A stretch of 64,000 bases of DNA from an uncultured Lachnospiraceae bacterium (GTDB lineage: Bacteria > Bacillota > Clostridia > Lachnospirales > Lachnospiraceae): positions 1 to 64,000 of the forward strand of contig OMVA01000059.1 in assembly GCA_900314445.1 (NCBI GenBank). Reading direction: 5' to 3'. This document shows, in pieces, positions 16,722 through 49,847 of this stretch (the stretch's first letter is position 1; every line of letters starts with the position of its first letter). A program made the translations under genes and the position numbers. The notes below the pieces were generated by a model. It ran no database searches. It was not told the DNA's origin and saw only the letters and a list, made by a program, of their open reading frames with translations.

Positions 16722-16738
16722 TGCAAATGGAATTTGCA
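16722..16738. repeat. GCAAATG/CATTTGC palindromic element
   Basis: TGCAAAT-GGA-ATTTGCA, an inverted repeat with a 3-base centre in the fabK-fabD spacer. Confidence 0.75.
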
Positions 16739-26799: not shown

Positions 26800-26814
26800 G
26801 CAAATTTCATTTGC
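26800..26814. repeat. GCAAATG/CATTTGC palindromic element
   Basis: GCAAAT-TTC-ATTTGC in the gap between the pspA-like gene and the zinc-ribbon gene. Confidence 0.7.
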
Positions 26815-27929: not shown

Positions 27930-28762
27930 TGAATATGTTATTAAAGGCGAGAAAGAGACTTCTTGCCATGATGATTCCAATGGGTATGGCTCTGGGGCTT
28001 ATACTTTCACCAGTAATTGCTCATGCAGATTCTGATGACACAGATGTTTACGGGGTTCCCAATAAAATTACAGAATCTTCTGAGATCTTTGATCCGGATG
28101 ATGTAATTTCTTCCAGTGAGGAAAAGACGATTCTTAAGAAGTTCAAAGCCATTGATGAGAAATATGATGTCAATGTGTATGCGGTGATCACCTATGAAAT
28201 TGGTGGTTCAGGCAGAGTAGATGATTATCTGGAATATGATTTCTATAAGAAACTTCCAGATCTCAATGCGGTAGTTGTGGTAATAGGTCTGGAGGAGAAT
28301 AACCACTGGTTCCAGCTTCATTCCTATGGTAATGATGGAGAAACTTCAGCAGAGTGTCTGGATACAGACCGACTGAATTCCATTCAGGATAAAATGAAGG
28401 GATACTTATCCAGTGGAGAATATGCTCAGGCTTTGATTACCTATGCAGATGATATTTCCTATTATCTGGGTAAGGGAGATGCAAGCTTTGACTCCTTATT
28501 CTTCAAGGGTTGGTTCCAGTTCCTTCTGGTACTGGTAATCGTATCCATAGTCATTTGCATTAAGGCGTTTTCTTCCGGTCAGAAGGTTACTACAACACCA
28601 GCGACTTATCTGGATCAGAAACAGTCAAGAGTATTAAGACACTTTGATAGATACACACACACAACAGTAACAAGAACAAAGATTGAGTCTTCATCCAGCT
28701 CCGGGGGCGGAGGCGGAGGAGGCGGAGGAGGCGGAAGCTCCAGCTCTGGTTCTAGTTTCTAA
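27926..28762 (+). CDS. TPM-domain exported protein (YdjH-like)
   Basis: 278 residues. Signal sequence about 1-33 (ending IAHADSDD), a TPM (TLP18.3/Psb32/MOLO-1) domain about 50-170, one membrane helix about 195-215, and a short cytoplasmic tail ending in an uninterrupted run of 11 glycines flanked by serines. TPM domains occur in membrane-stress and photosystem-repair proteins. Two adjacent ATGs (27926, 27929) could serve; GGGAGGG lies upstream. The Gly/Ser tail is typical of these small-operon TPM proteins. Confidence 0.83.
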   Translation: MMNMLLKARKRLLAMMIPMGMALGLILSPVIAHADSDDTDVYGVPNKITESSEIFDPDDVISSSEEKTILKKFKAIDEKYDVNVYAVITYEIGGSGRVDDYLEYDFYKKLPDLNAVVVVIGLEENNHWFQLHSYGNDGETSAECLDTDRLNSIQDKMKGYLSSGEYAQALITYADDISYYLGKGDASFDSLFFKGWFQFLLVLVIVSIVICIKAFSSGQKVTTTPATYLDQKQSRVLRHFDRYTHTTVTRTKIESSSSSGGGGGGGGGGGSSSSGSSF

Positions 28763-35332: not shown

Positions 35333-37069
35333 ATGTCAAAATGGACATTTGAAAATGAAGAATATTATTTGACGGGAGAAGAAGCCCAGAAGCTGGATAC
35401 CTATATGCAGACAGAACTTGGGATTCCAGGAATTATTCTTATGGAAAAGGCGGCAGAGGGTGCAAGAGATGTACTTCTGGATGAAATGGAGTCCGGCCTT
35501 TTAAAAGATTTTGATAAATTCTGTGATGGGATTCTTGTTATTACAGAAAACGGAAATAATGGAGGAGATGGTCTGGCTCTGGCTCGTCTTATGAAAGATG
35601 AGGGCTATGGAGTTCTGGTTTATGAAATCAATGGAATTTCTCATAAATCAAACTCTTACATACTTCAGCAAAAAATGTTGGAAGCAAATGGAATTGAAAG
35701 ACTCCAGAGCCTGGATGATCCAAGACTGAATGATTCGGCTATTAAAGAAAAACAGGATGCATTTGCAAATAGCCAAGGAGGATTTCACAAACTACTGATT
35801 GTGGATGCTATCTTTGGTGTTGGACTTCATCGACCGGTAACCGGAGTTCAGGCAGAGGTAATATCCTGGATCAATCAAAGGGTAGATGCCTTTGTGGTAA
35901 GTCTGGATATAGCCAGCGGAATCTGGGCAGATTCTGGGCAGATTCTGGGAAGTGCGGTGCAAGCAGATTTAACCATCACTTTCCAGGCTGTTAAGTATGG
36001 AGCCCTGCAGGGAGATGGAAGAATTTGCAGTGGCCAGATTCGTCTTGTTAAATTAGTGAAACATCCACACTATCATGCTGACAGATTCCTTTATCGTGGA
36101 ATTTCAGCAAGTAAGGACAAGAATCGAATTCCTGCAAAGCATGAGAATGATAATAAGGGAAGTGCTGGTAAGGTATTAATTATTGCTGGTAGTAAAACAG
36201 TTGGGGGAGCGGCGCTCTTTGCAGCAACGGCTGCCTATAACGCAGGAGCTGGGCTGGTTAATATCTTTACATCAGAACAGAATCGAAGTTTTATTAACAA
36301 GAACCTTCCAGAAGCTCTTATTAGCACTTATGATGATCAGGATGGAAATATGTTTCCAAACTGGAAAGAAGTTTTATCTGAGAAGATTAAGTGGGCAGAT
36401 GCAGTGGCCATTGGACCCGGAATTGGAACAGATTCCATTGGAGAAAGCCTGCTGAAATATACCATTTCTGAGAAGCCTGAACTTCTAGTTATGGATGCGG
36501 ATGCAATCACCCTGATGATGAATCCGGAAGTAAGGGCTATGTATGATCAAGTATTTGTAAAAGGAAATGAGAATAAGGGAAGAAGTCGTGTGGTATTTAC
36601 ACCCCATATGGCAGAAATGCAGAGACTGATTGCAGCCTATGGCTGGAATGTTAGCATGCATGATCTAAAACTGGACAGAAGAAATTTCCTGGATTGTATG
36701 TCCATGGAAAGCAATTCCACCATTGCCCTGAAAGATGCCAGAACACAGATTGCCACAGTAAGGAGCGGCCCAGAAGAAGTCAAAGGGCATTTTCTGAATG
36801 TTACCGGAAATATGGGAATGGCAAAGGGCGGTTCCGGAGATGTCTTAACTGGCATTCTTGCTTCTTTTCTTGCAGCGGCAGGAGTTCAAAAGAGACATGC
36901 AAATAGGCATTTAAGCCCAGATGATATTTTAGAACTGGTGGCAGAAGGGGTGCGAATTCATGGCCTGGCAGGAGACGCCGCAGCTGAAAAAATTGGGGTG
37001 TATGGAATGAAGGCAAGTGATATAATAGACCATATTCCGATTGTCATTCGTCGGGTGGAAGGAAGATAA
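35333..37069 (+). CDS. nnr: bifunctional NAD(P)HX epimerase/dehydratase
   Basis: 578-residue fusion repairing hydrated NAD(P)H. The N-terminal YjeF_N epimerase domain (1-250) has NGNNGGDGLALAR; the C-terminal ribokinase-like ADP-dependent dehydratase (about 265-575) has AIGPGIGTD and NMGMAKGGSGDVLTG. The fusion is the usual bacterial form. ATG 35333 with AGAGGTAGAAGG. alr follows four bases downstream, an arrangement frequent in bacteria. Confidence 0.93.
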   Translation: MSKWTFENEEYYLTGEEAQKLDTYMQTELGIPGIILMEKAAEGARDVLLDEMESGLLKDFDKFCDGILVITENGNNGGDGLALARLMKDEGYGVLVYEINGISHKSNSYILQQKMLEANGIERLQSLDDPRLNDSAIKEKQDAFANSQGGFHKLLIVDAIFGVGLHRPVTGVQAEVISWINQRVDAFVVSLDIASGIWADSGQILGSAVQADLTITFQAVKYGALQGDGRICSGQIRLVKLVKHPHYHADRFLYRGISASKDKNRIPAKHENDNKGSAGKVLIIAGSKTVGGAALFAATAAYNAGAGLVNIFTSEQNRSFINKNLPEALISTYDDQDGNMFPNWKEVLSEKIKWADAVAIGPGIGTDSIGESLLKYTISEKPELLVMDADAITLMMNPEVRAMYDQVFVKGNENKGRSRVVFTPHMAEMQRLIAAYGWNVSMHDLKLDRRNFLDCMSMESNSTIALKDARTQIATVRSGPEEVKGHFLNVTGNMGMAKGGSGDVLTGILASFLAAAGVQKRHANRHLSPDDILELVAEGVRIHGLAGDAAAEKIGVYGMKASDIIDHIPIVIRRVEGR

Positions 37070-37073
37070 ATAA

Positions 37074-38228
37074 ATGTTTAGAAGAATTGAAGCCGATATT
37101 AATCTGGATGCGATTCGTCATAATATCCAGGCCGTGCAGGCAGTGAATGAAGCAGGCAAGAATACTTTGCTTGTAATCAAGGCAGATGCATATGGACACG
37201 GTGCTGTAGAAGTAGCGAAAAAAATGGGAGACCTGGCTGATTACTTTGGCGTTGCCTGTATAGATGAAGCTCTGGAACTCCGAAACGCAGGAATTTGTAA
37301 ACCAATTTTAATTCTTGGCTATACGGATGAAACAGCCTTTGATGCATTAATCGAAAATGATGTAACAGCCGCCGTTTATGATTATGAAAAATGTAAGCTC
37401 CTTTCGGAAAGAGCCCTTGCTTTAGGCAAGAAGGCTAAGGTACACATTAAGGCTGATAGTGGCATGAGCCGAATCGGTTTCCAGTGTGACGAAAAGGGTA
37501 TAGAAGAAGCAAGCAGACTTCTGGGACTGCAGGGACTGGATGTGGAAGGTGTATTCACTCACTATGCCAAGGCAGATGAAAAAGATAAGACCGCAGCAAA
37601 GCAGCAGTATGAAAAGTTCCTCTACTTTACAAAGTCTCTGGAGGCAAATGGGTTTGCCTTCAAATTAAAGCATATTGATAACAGCGCCGGTGCCATGGAA
37701 CTCCATTCAGCAGGTTTCAATATGATGAGACTTGGAATAGTTATCTATGGTCTTTACCCATCGGATGAGGTGGAGAAATCAATTGAACTGATTCCAGCTA
37801 TGGCTCTTCGTAGCCGAATTATCCATATTAAAACATTAGAAGCAGGACGTGGTATTTCCTATGGTTGGACTTATTCCACCAAAGAAGCAACCCGTGTGGC
37901 TACCGTATCTGCTGGTTATGCAGATGGTTATCCAAGATCCCAGTCTGGCCTTGGCCATGTGCTGGTGCGCGGTAAAAAAGCACCAATTCTTGGCCGTGTT
38001 TGCATGGATCAGTTAATGATCGATGTGAGCCATATTCCAGAGGCAAAACTTCGTGATGCCGTTACCTTAATTGGAAGTGATGGAGAGGAAAGAATTTCTG
38101 TAGAAGAAGTTGCTTCTCCAGCCAATAGCTTTAATTACGAACTTGTATGTAATATCAGTCGCCGTGTGCCACGTGTATATTTTGAAAATGGCCAGGAGAC
38201 AGAAGAGGTAAATGATTTACTTTCCTAG
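37074..38228 (+). CDS. alr: alanine racemase
   Basis: 384 residues; PLP enzyme making D-alanine for peptidoglycan. Lys36 in VIKADAYGHGA binds PLP and Tyr263 in GISYGWTY is the second catalytic base. Coupled to nnr upstream. The last eight codons and stop (38202-38228) form the first copy of a 36-bp tandem repeat that continues past the gene, so the C-terminus EEVNDLLS may be recent or changeable. Core domains are intact. Confidence 0.95.
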   Translation: MFRRIEADINLDAIRHNIQAVQAVNEAGKNTLLVIKADAYGHGAVEVAKKMGDLADYFGVACIDEALELRNAGICKPILILGYTDETAFDALIENDVTAAVYDYEKCKLLSERALALGKKAKVHIKADSGMSRIGFQCDEKGIEEASRLLGLQGLDVEGVFTHYAKADEKDKTAAKQQYEKFLYFTKSLEANGFAFKLKHIDNSAGAMELHSAGFNMMRLGIVIYGLYPSDEVEKSIELIPAMALRSRIIHIKTLEAGRGISYGWTYSTKEATRVATVSAGYADGYPRSQSGLGHVLVRGKKAPILGRVCMDQLMIDVSHIPEAKLRDAVTLIGSDGEERISVEEVASPANSFNYELVCNISRRVPRVYFENGQETEEVNDLLS

Positions 38229-38376
38229 GCTGAAAAAGAAGAGGTAAATGATTTACTTTCCTAGGCTGAAAAAGAAGAGGTAAATGATTTACTTTCCTAG
38301 GCTGAAAAAGAAGAAGTAAATGTCTTACTTTCATAGACTGAGAAAAGAAGAAGGAAATAATTACTTTCCTAAAGAG
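38202..38376 (+). repeat. 36-bp tandem repeat overlapping the alr 3' end
   Basis: Three identical units at 38202-38237, 38238-38273 and 38274-38309, a fourth at 38310-38345 with six differences, and a degenerate partial fifth. Each perfect unit holds the palindrome GTAAATGATTTAC, the alr stop TAG in the alr frame, and in another frame a complete micro-ORF of 11 codons (MIYFPRLKKKR) whose TAA abuts the next ATG (38212, 38248, 38284, 38320). The decayed fifth unit supplies the ribosome site of the next gene. Confidence 0.95.
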
Positions 38377-38386
38377 AGGTTAATTT

Positions 38387-39202
38387 TTGTTTCAATTTAA
38401 GAAAAAAGAACAACATGTAGAAAAGGAAATCATGGGACTTGTGGAAGCAGGTCATGAAGAGGGCTTCATTCATGAAAATGAAGCAGACATGATTTCAAAT
38501 ATTCTGGACTTCAACGATAAGAAGGCAAGAGATATTCAAACCTGCAGAAATAAAATTTTTGCAGTGGCTTCCACAGATGTATTATCGGATATTCTTCCTA
38601 AGTGTCTGGAATCTGGCTTCTCCAGATATCCAGTTTACATAGAGGATATCGATCACATCACCGGTGTGCTTCACTTAAAGGATCTTGTGGCAGCCTATCT
38701 TGAAAAGCCGGATGATCTGGTATCCCATATTATGGATGACACCATGTTCATTCATCCTACCTATGAGCTTTATAAACTTCTGAAGAAAATGCAGAGGGAT
38801 AAAATTCATATGGCCATTGTACTGGATGAATATGGCCAGACGGATGGTATTGTCACATTGGAAGATATTATCGAGGAAATTGTTGGTAATATTCTGGATG
38901 AACATGATACAGAAGAGAAGGAAGTACATCATTTCGGAGAAGATGGCTATGTTGTAGAAGGCCATATGTCTCTCAATGATCTGGAAGAACTTATTGATGG
39001 TCTGGAATTCCCGGAGGGAGATATTGAAACTCTCAATGGATTTATGCTTTATAAACTGGGACATCTTCCACGTGAGGGAGAGAATATTATGATTTACTAC
39101 GGTGGTTATGCTTTCCATCCCCTGCTTGTTCGTAATCGTATGATTCAGACTGTTCGCATTACAAAAGTTGCTTCTTCAAAGGAAGGAGAAAGCAAGAAGT
39201 AA
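38387..39202 (+). CDS. CBS-pair/CorC-domain protein without membrane region
   Basis: 271 residues starting at TTG 38387 behind AGAGAGG. It has a short basic N-terminus, two CBS domains (about 55-180) and a CorC/HlyC C-terminal domain (about 190-265). Related hemolysin/CorC proteins usually carry an N-terminal DUF21 membrane domain, which is missing here; the E. coli CorC form is also soluble. It may regulate Mg/Co efflux or bind adenosine nucleotides. It lies directly behind the tandem repeat. Confidence 0.85.
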   Translation: MFQFKKKEQHVEKEIMGLVEAGHEEGFIHENEADMISNILDFNDKKARDIQTCRNKIFAVASTDVLSDILPKCLESGFSRYPVYIEDIDHITGVLHLKDLVAAYLEKPDDLVSHIMDDTMFIHPTYELYKLLKKMQRDKIHMAIVLDEYGQTDGIVTLEDIIEEIVGNILDEHDTEEKEVHHFGEDGYVVEGHMSLNDLEELIDGLEFPEGDIETLNGFMLYKLGHLPREGENIMIYYGGYAFHPLLVRNRMIQTVRITKVASSKEGESKK

Positions 39203-39260: not shown

Positions 39261-39275
39261 GGGCAGTTCATTTGC
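39261..39275. repeat. GCAAATG/CATTTGC element
   Basis: GGGCAGTTCATTTGC, preceded by CAAATG at 39256, in the yebC leader. Confidence 0.55.
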
Positions 39276-40122: not shown

Positions 40123-40139
40123 GGCAAATCCCATTTGCC
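40123..40139. repeat. GCAAATG/CATTTGC palindromic element
   Basis: GGCAAAT-CCC-ATTTGCC after yebC; 7-bp arms with a 3-base centre. Confidence 0.75.
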
Positions 40140-44274: not shown

Positions 44275-44292
44275 TGCACAGTTCATTTGCAG
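44275..44292. repeat. GCAAATG/CATTTGC element
   Basis: TGCACAGTTCATTTGCAG just after rqcH. Confidence 0.55.
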
Positions 44293-49830: not shown

Positions 49831-49847
49831 GCGCAGTCCATTTGCAG
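49831..49847. repeat. GCAAATG/CATTTGC element
   Basis: GCGCAGTCCATTTGCAG in the priA-def gap, upstream of the chosen def start. Confidence 0.5.

Follow-up and report, generated by a model that had tools for sequence, protein, structure and literature searches.

Gene context and structure of the array

The window examined in this work is a stretch of 64,000 nucleotides from one contig of a 2.1-Mb draft genome in 108 contigs. Within it an alanine racemase gene (alr) is followed by a tandem repeat and then, in the same orientation, by a gene whose product carries a CBS pair and a CorC_HlyC domain (hereafter the CBS gene), which a YebC-family gene adjoins downstream (Table 1). A TRF scan of the window places the array at 38201-38371, with a period of 36, 4.8 copies and a score of 270, and no other array there scores above 64. 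The run over which every base equals the base 36 positions further on extends for 78 bases, compared with 9-11 in shuffles of the surrounding 16 kb, and the array is therefore not a product of chance.

Alignment of the copies bears out the original prediction of three identical 36-base units followed by decaying copies (identities in Table 1). Unit 5 still aligns with a score of 35, where none of 2000 shuffles exceeded 19, and its equivalent of the stop codon, a TAA at 38370-38372, stands exactly 144 bases (4 x 36) after the alr stop. Read in codons, unit 1 starts GAA GAG GTA AAT GAT TTA CTT TCC TAG, which confirms that it opens with the last eight alr codons and the stop. A palindrome had also been assigned to each unit; a symmetric stretch does exist, but it is of odd length with a central G. 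Having head-to-tail copies of a 36-bp unit, 4.8 in number, at a single locus between alr and the CBS gene, the array fits the description of an intergenic minisatellite. A CRISPR array is ruled out, since CRISPR repeats need unique spacers and the units here are contiguous, with none between them.

Together with a short leader the array fills an alr-CBS spacer of 158 nt. The CBS gene has its ribosome site, AGAGAGG (38373-38379), just after unit 5 and not within the decayed last unit, where it had been placed; the strength of this site is in line with that of the window's genes (median -8.7). Excising the 144 bases leaves a 14-nt spacer, AGAGAGGTTAATTT-TTG, which is normal for the genus and has an ordinary ribosome site.

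Table 1. Features of the alr-CBS locus (window coordinates) and gene-end arrays found elsewhere in the same genome (coordinates within the named stretch). SD, Shine-Dalgarno.
Feature	Coordinates	Strand	Remarks
alr, alanine racemase, 384 aa	37074..38228	+	NCBIfam TIGR00492, 378 bits vs cut-off 168
alr native stop TAG	38226-38228	+	C-terminus aligns with genus relatives
Unit 1	38201..38236	+	last alr codons and stop inside
Unit 2	38237..38272	+	identical to unit 1
Unit 3	38273..38308	+	identical to unit 1
Unit 4	38309..38345	+	decayed; 31/37 identical, one gap; SD-like stretch weakened to AAGAAG
Unit 5	38346..38372	+	decayed, partial; 23/28 identical, one gap
Three in-frame micro-ORFs (span 38212..38319)	38212-38247, 38248-38283, 38284-38319	+	predicted; each 11 codons and TAA
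26-codon frame from unit 4 ATG	38320..38400	+	predicted; ends 14 nt past CBS start
14-nt leader with CBS-gene ribosome site AGAGAGG	38373..38386	+	anti-SD duplex energy -9.4
CBS-pair and CorC_HlyC domain protein, TTG start	38387..39202	+	Pfam PF00571, PF03471
Gene-end array behind glycerophosphotransferase (Pfam)	L144:2510-2727		period 36
Gene-end array behind Ham1 (Pfam)	L132:2231-2335		period 33
Gene-end array behind M50 protease (Pfam)	L164:11765-11863		period 24

Origin of the repeat unit

Relatives were compared through 29 fetched loci of the same genus, in the closest of which alr shares 72% amino-acid identity or less with the gene described here. The C-terminus of alr in these loci mostly reads E[VI]NYL[RK]-stop or ends within a few residues of it. 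The check proposed at the outset, whether the alr C-terminus differs in relatives, thus returned the same end point in nearly all of them, and because alr ends alike across the genus, the native stop is that of unit 1, behind which units 2 to 5 were added. The CBS/CorC_HlyC gene adjoins alr in 27 of the 29 loci, with spacers that range from -8 to 111 nt around a middle value near 30; two spacers of 404 and 489 nt (L039 and L040) were set aside, as they come from another collection and have no clear alr-CBS neighbours. The closest relative by alr (L010, 72%) carries a YebC-family gene directly after alr, with no CBS gene between them.

TRF detected no array at the alr end in any of the fetched same-genus loci. 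A search for the unit itself recovered no second copy in its own genome. The 60 congeners searched yielded only short matches at chance level, none of them a real counterpart, and in 298 further members of the family nothing came within 3 mismatches of it. Confinement to one locus, with no counterpart in the genus or family, rules out a dispersed repeat as the source of the unit. Since the array is absent from the other genus members examined and its first three copies are identical, the predicted expansion from the end of alr in this lineage is supported.

Gene-end arrays elsewhere in the genome

The alr array has counterparts in form at other loci. We surveyed 669 kb of the genome with TRF (about a third of it, sampled as stretches partly biased to contig ends; period >=20, >=2.5 copies, score >=100) and obtained 24 arrays, 10 of them intergenic; in four, alr included, the stop of the upstream gene lies in the first copy. 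Six congeners (1107 kb) gave 22 arrays, of which 5 are intergenic and 1 has a stop inside. The excess over congeners is borderline (p = 0.048 overall, 0.030 for intergenic arrays), and given this and the bias to contig ends, the counts support a common process and not a proven excess. The three other gene-end arrays (Table 1) resemble the alr array in that the upstream stop is in the first copy and the units fill the intergenic gap, but they differ from it in sequence, with periods of 36, 33 and 24. The one behind the glycerophosphotransferase gene has six 36-bp units, each made of the last codons of the gene, TAG and the palindrome GCAAATGAAATTTGC.

The original prediction had pointed out that 36 is a multiple of three. 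This says little, as the intergenic arrays of the genome have periods of 20, 22, 24, 32, 33, 36, 36, 37, 40 and 41, a variety in which reading frame plays no visible part. Small tandem repeats, perfect or near-perfect according to TRF, also occur in the window at 28702-28735 (GGAGGCGGA x3) and 35922-35949 (TCTGGGCAGAT x2.5).

A probable near-neutral product of slippage

We put at roughly 80% the probability that the array is an ordinary gene-end minisatellite, specific to this lineage, generated by slippage and mostly near-neutral. An ancestral tandem duplication would have taken in the last 27 bases of alr (the eight codons and the stop) together with 9 further bases, after which slippage during replication, or unequal recombination among the copies, could have raised their number to about five, the three copies nearest alr probably being the youngest or the most recently homogenised. 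From the identity of these copies we infer some turnover in copy number. Copy 1 retains the native stop and the CBS ribosome site lies beyond the last copy, so that both proteins and their initiation sites are intact. The insert is therefore likely to be tolerated and, for the most part, near-neutral; the most it would do is loosen any translational coupling between alr and the CBS gene, the spacer having grown from about 14 to 158 nt. A duplication that spares the upstream protein and the next ribosome site would also account for the survival of such arrays in general. The alr array illustrates cleanly where a minisatellite can be tolerated, in that a stop within the duplicated unit lets the first copy protect the upstream protein, while an end before the ribosome site spares the downstream gene. 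It may also serve as a strain-typing marker.

The closest published parallel is the rnc-fpg1 repeats (ETR-F/VNTR3239) of the Mycobacterium tuberculosis complex, a 37-bp unit in five identical copies that occupies a spacer only a few bases long in most other mycobacteria; strains differ in the number of copies, which correlates with expression (PMC2734929). As at alr, a short, lineage-restricted repeat fills the spacer of two co-oriented genes; unlike the alr array, which includes the upstream stop, the rnc-fpg1 array starts 40 bp past the rnc stop and is composite. Mycobacterial MIRUs offer a second comparison; in H37Rv, senX3 and regX3 are separated by three identical 77-bp units. They are dispersed, apparently mobile elements that insert at start codons with a -4 nt spacing (PMC12548453; PMC4213456). 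MIRUs share with the alr array the placing of tandem units between co-oriented genes, and a small ORF in the MIRU unit can couple to its neighbour, but the alr unit is derived from the local gene end. Membership among the MIRUs is rejected on two grounds: they require many dispersed loci, whereas the alr unit is at one locus only, and they require -4 nt coupling, whereas the last frame of the alr array overlaps the CBS start by 14 nt.

Possible effects on expression of the CBS gene

Although we consider it unlikely, the array could act as a spacer of variable copy number that tunes expression of the CBS gene through decoupling, mRNA stability or a weak promoter, without any translation of micro-ORFs. 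The spacer of 158 nt is longer than that of any of the 27 congeners (at most 111 nt), coupling is known to fall sharply past about 20 nt (PMC10666635), and in M. tuberculosis longer rnc-fpg1 arrays go with higher fpg1 mRNA (PMC2734929). However, congener spacers already range from -8 to 111 nt, so that spacing is not tightly held, and promoter-like sites in the array are no more numerous than in shuffles. An effect of copy number on CBS expression is possible, and were it to occur, the operon would possess a spacer tunable by slippage.

Other signals in the array were sought as well. No forward terminator was found in it and, with promoter-like sites at shuffle level, a terminator or promoter is rejected. 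A structured RNA is likewise rejected, as folding of the array transcript is not significant (z -1.69; 15 of 200 shuffles fold as well) and Rfam gives no credible match above its gathering score.

The micro-ORF chain

The original prediction also described a chain of micro-ORFs, one to each unit. As letters it is present in units 1 to 3: the frame reads MIYFPRLKKKR* in units 1 and 2, each TAA touching the following ATG, and MIYFPRLKKKK* in unit 3, ending in KKKK*; but unit 4 opens a 26-codon frame and unit 5 has lost its start codon. The Shine-Dalgarno-like stretch described for each unit fares similarly, being recognisable in units 2 and 3 at -8.1 kcal/mol, inside the range of genes, but with AGAGG only 3 nt ahead of the ATG and with the signal lost in unit 4 (-3.6).

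Such chains arise readily by repetition, since repeating frames are a property of every unit length divisible by three. When random 36-mers from the window are repeated, 27% have a frame with an ATG and a stop, and in 5% the stop immediately precedes the ATG; for the shuffled unit these values are 47% and 8%. The TAAATG junction itself derives from the alr codons GTA AAT GAT, in a region whose E-V/I-N part is conserved in the genus. Taken together, the chance rate, the origin in alr codons, the decayed signals and a first hop of 19 nt from the alr stop to the ATG of unit 2 give no sign of selection keeping the chain. As a selected feature it is rejected by the chance estimates and by the decay of Shine-Dalgarno, start or stop in the older copies; a function for the micro-ORFs is not supported, and the sequence gives no good sign that the short reading frames of the unit would be used.

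It is correspondingly improbable that the micro-ORFs form a relay in which ribosomes leaving alr reinitiate at the TAA-ATG junctions and pass through the frame of unit 4 towards the CBS start. The contact between TAA and ATG, the end of the unit 4 frame just past the CBS start and the gene-like Shine-Dalgarno energy of units 2 and 3 would suit such a relay, and MIRU elements offer a precedent for coupling between a gene and an ORF carried by a repeat (PMC12548453). However, junctions of this kind are expected by chance in 5-8% of cases, the Shine-Dalgarno to ATG gap is short, the signals fail in units 4 and 5, and the CBS gene owns a good ribosome site. The distance from the alr stop to the unit 2 ATG is also poor for reinitiation, which requires overlaps or very short gaps (PMC10666635). 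A shade less credible again is the stronger version, in which duplication of the gene end would have produced, in the string of TAA-ATG micro-ORFs, a self-made device for taking ribosomes over a gap otherwise expected to break coupling to the next gene.

Least probable of all is that the number of units is an artefact of assembly: a draft in 108 contigs is probably built from short reads, for which repeats are a known weak point, but the contig crosses the array with long unique flanks, the decayed units 4 and 5 cannot arise by assembly, and a short k-mer would usually collapse a 78-base exact repeat and not inflate it, so that three identical units are more likely a lower bound.

A dispersed motif in the same genome

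Separately from the array, this genome contains 662 copies of a roughly palindromic motif of 15 nt, GCAAATGRRHTKNBC (strict palindromic form GCAAATGnnATTTGC), whereas any one of 60 congeners has 0-10; the reversed control is absent from this genome. Examples in the window lie at 2220-2234 and 16723-16737 on the + strand and at 26800-26814, 39261-39275, 40124-40138, 44276-44290 and 49831-49845 on the - strand. Of the 223 copies in the 669 kb surveyed, 141 (about 63%) fall outside predicted genes, although these account for 88% of that sequence. Copies between co-oriented genes point either way equally often (58 and 56) and stand a median of 44 nt behind the upstream stop.

The alr unit does not belong to this motif: its GTAAATGATTTAC differs in letters and spacing class, and the pattern has no match at 38201-38372. 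A link between the motif and the palindrome of the unit is rejected on the difference in letters and spacing. A RAYT/Y1 transposase behind the motif is rejected, the genome having no PF01797 match, and the literature, searched for comparable interspersed motifs confined to one species, returned nothing. Three intergenic arrays (L160:10160-10305, L137:8021-8144 and L165:510-616, with periods of 32, 37 and 40) contain the motif in their units, and it may therefore seed minisatellites in this genome. The motif looks more interesting than the alr array and merits a separate study.
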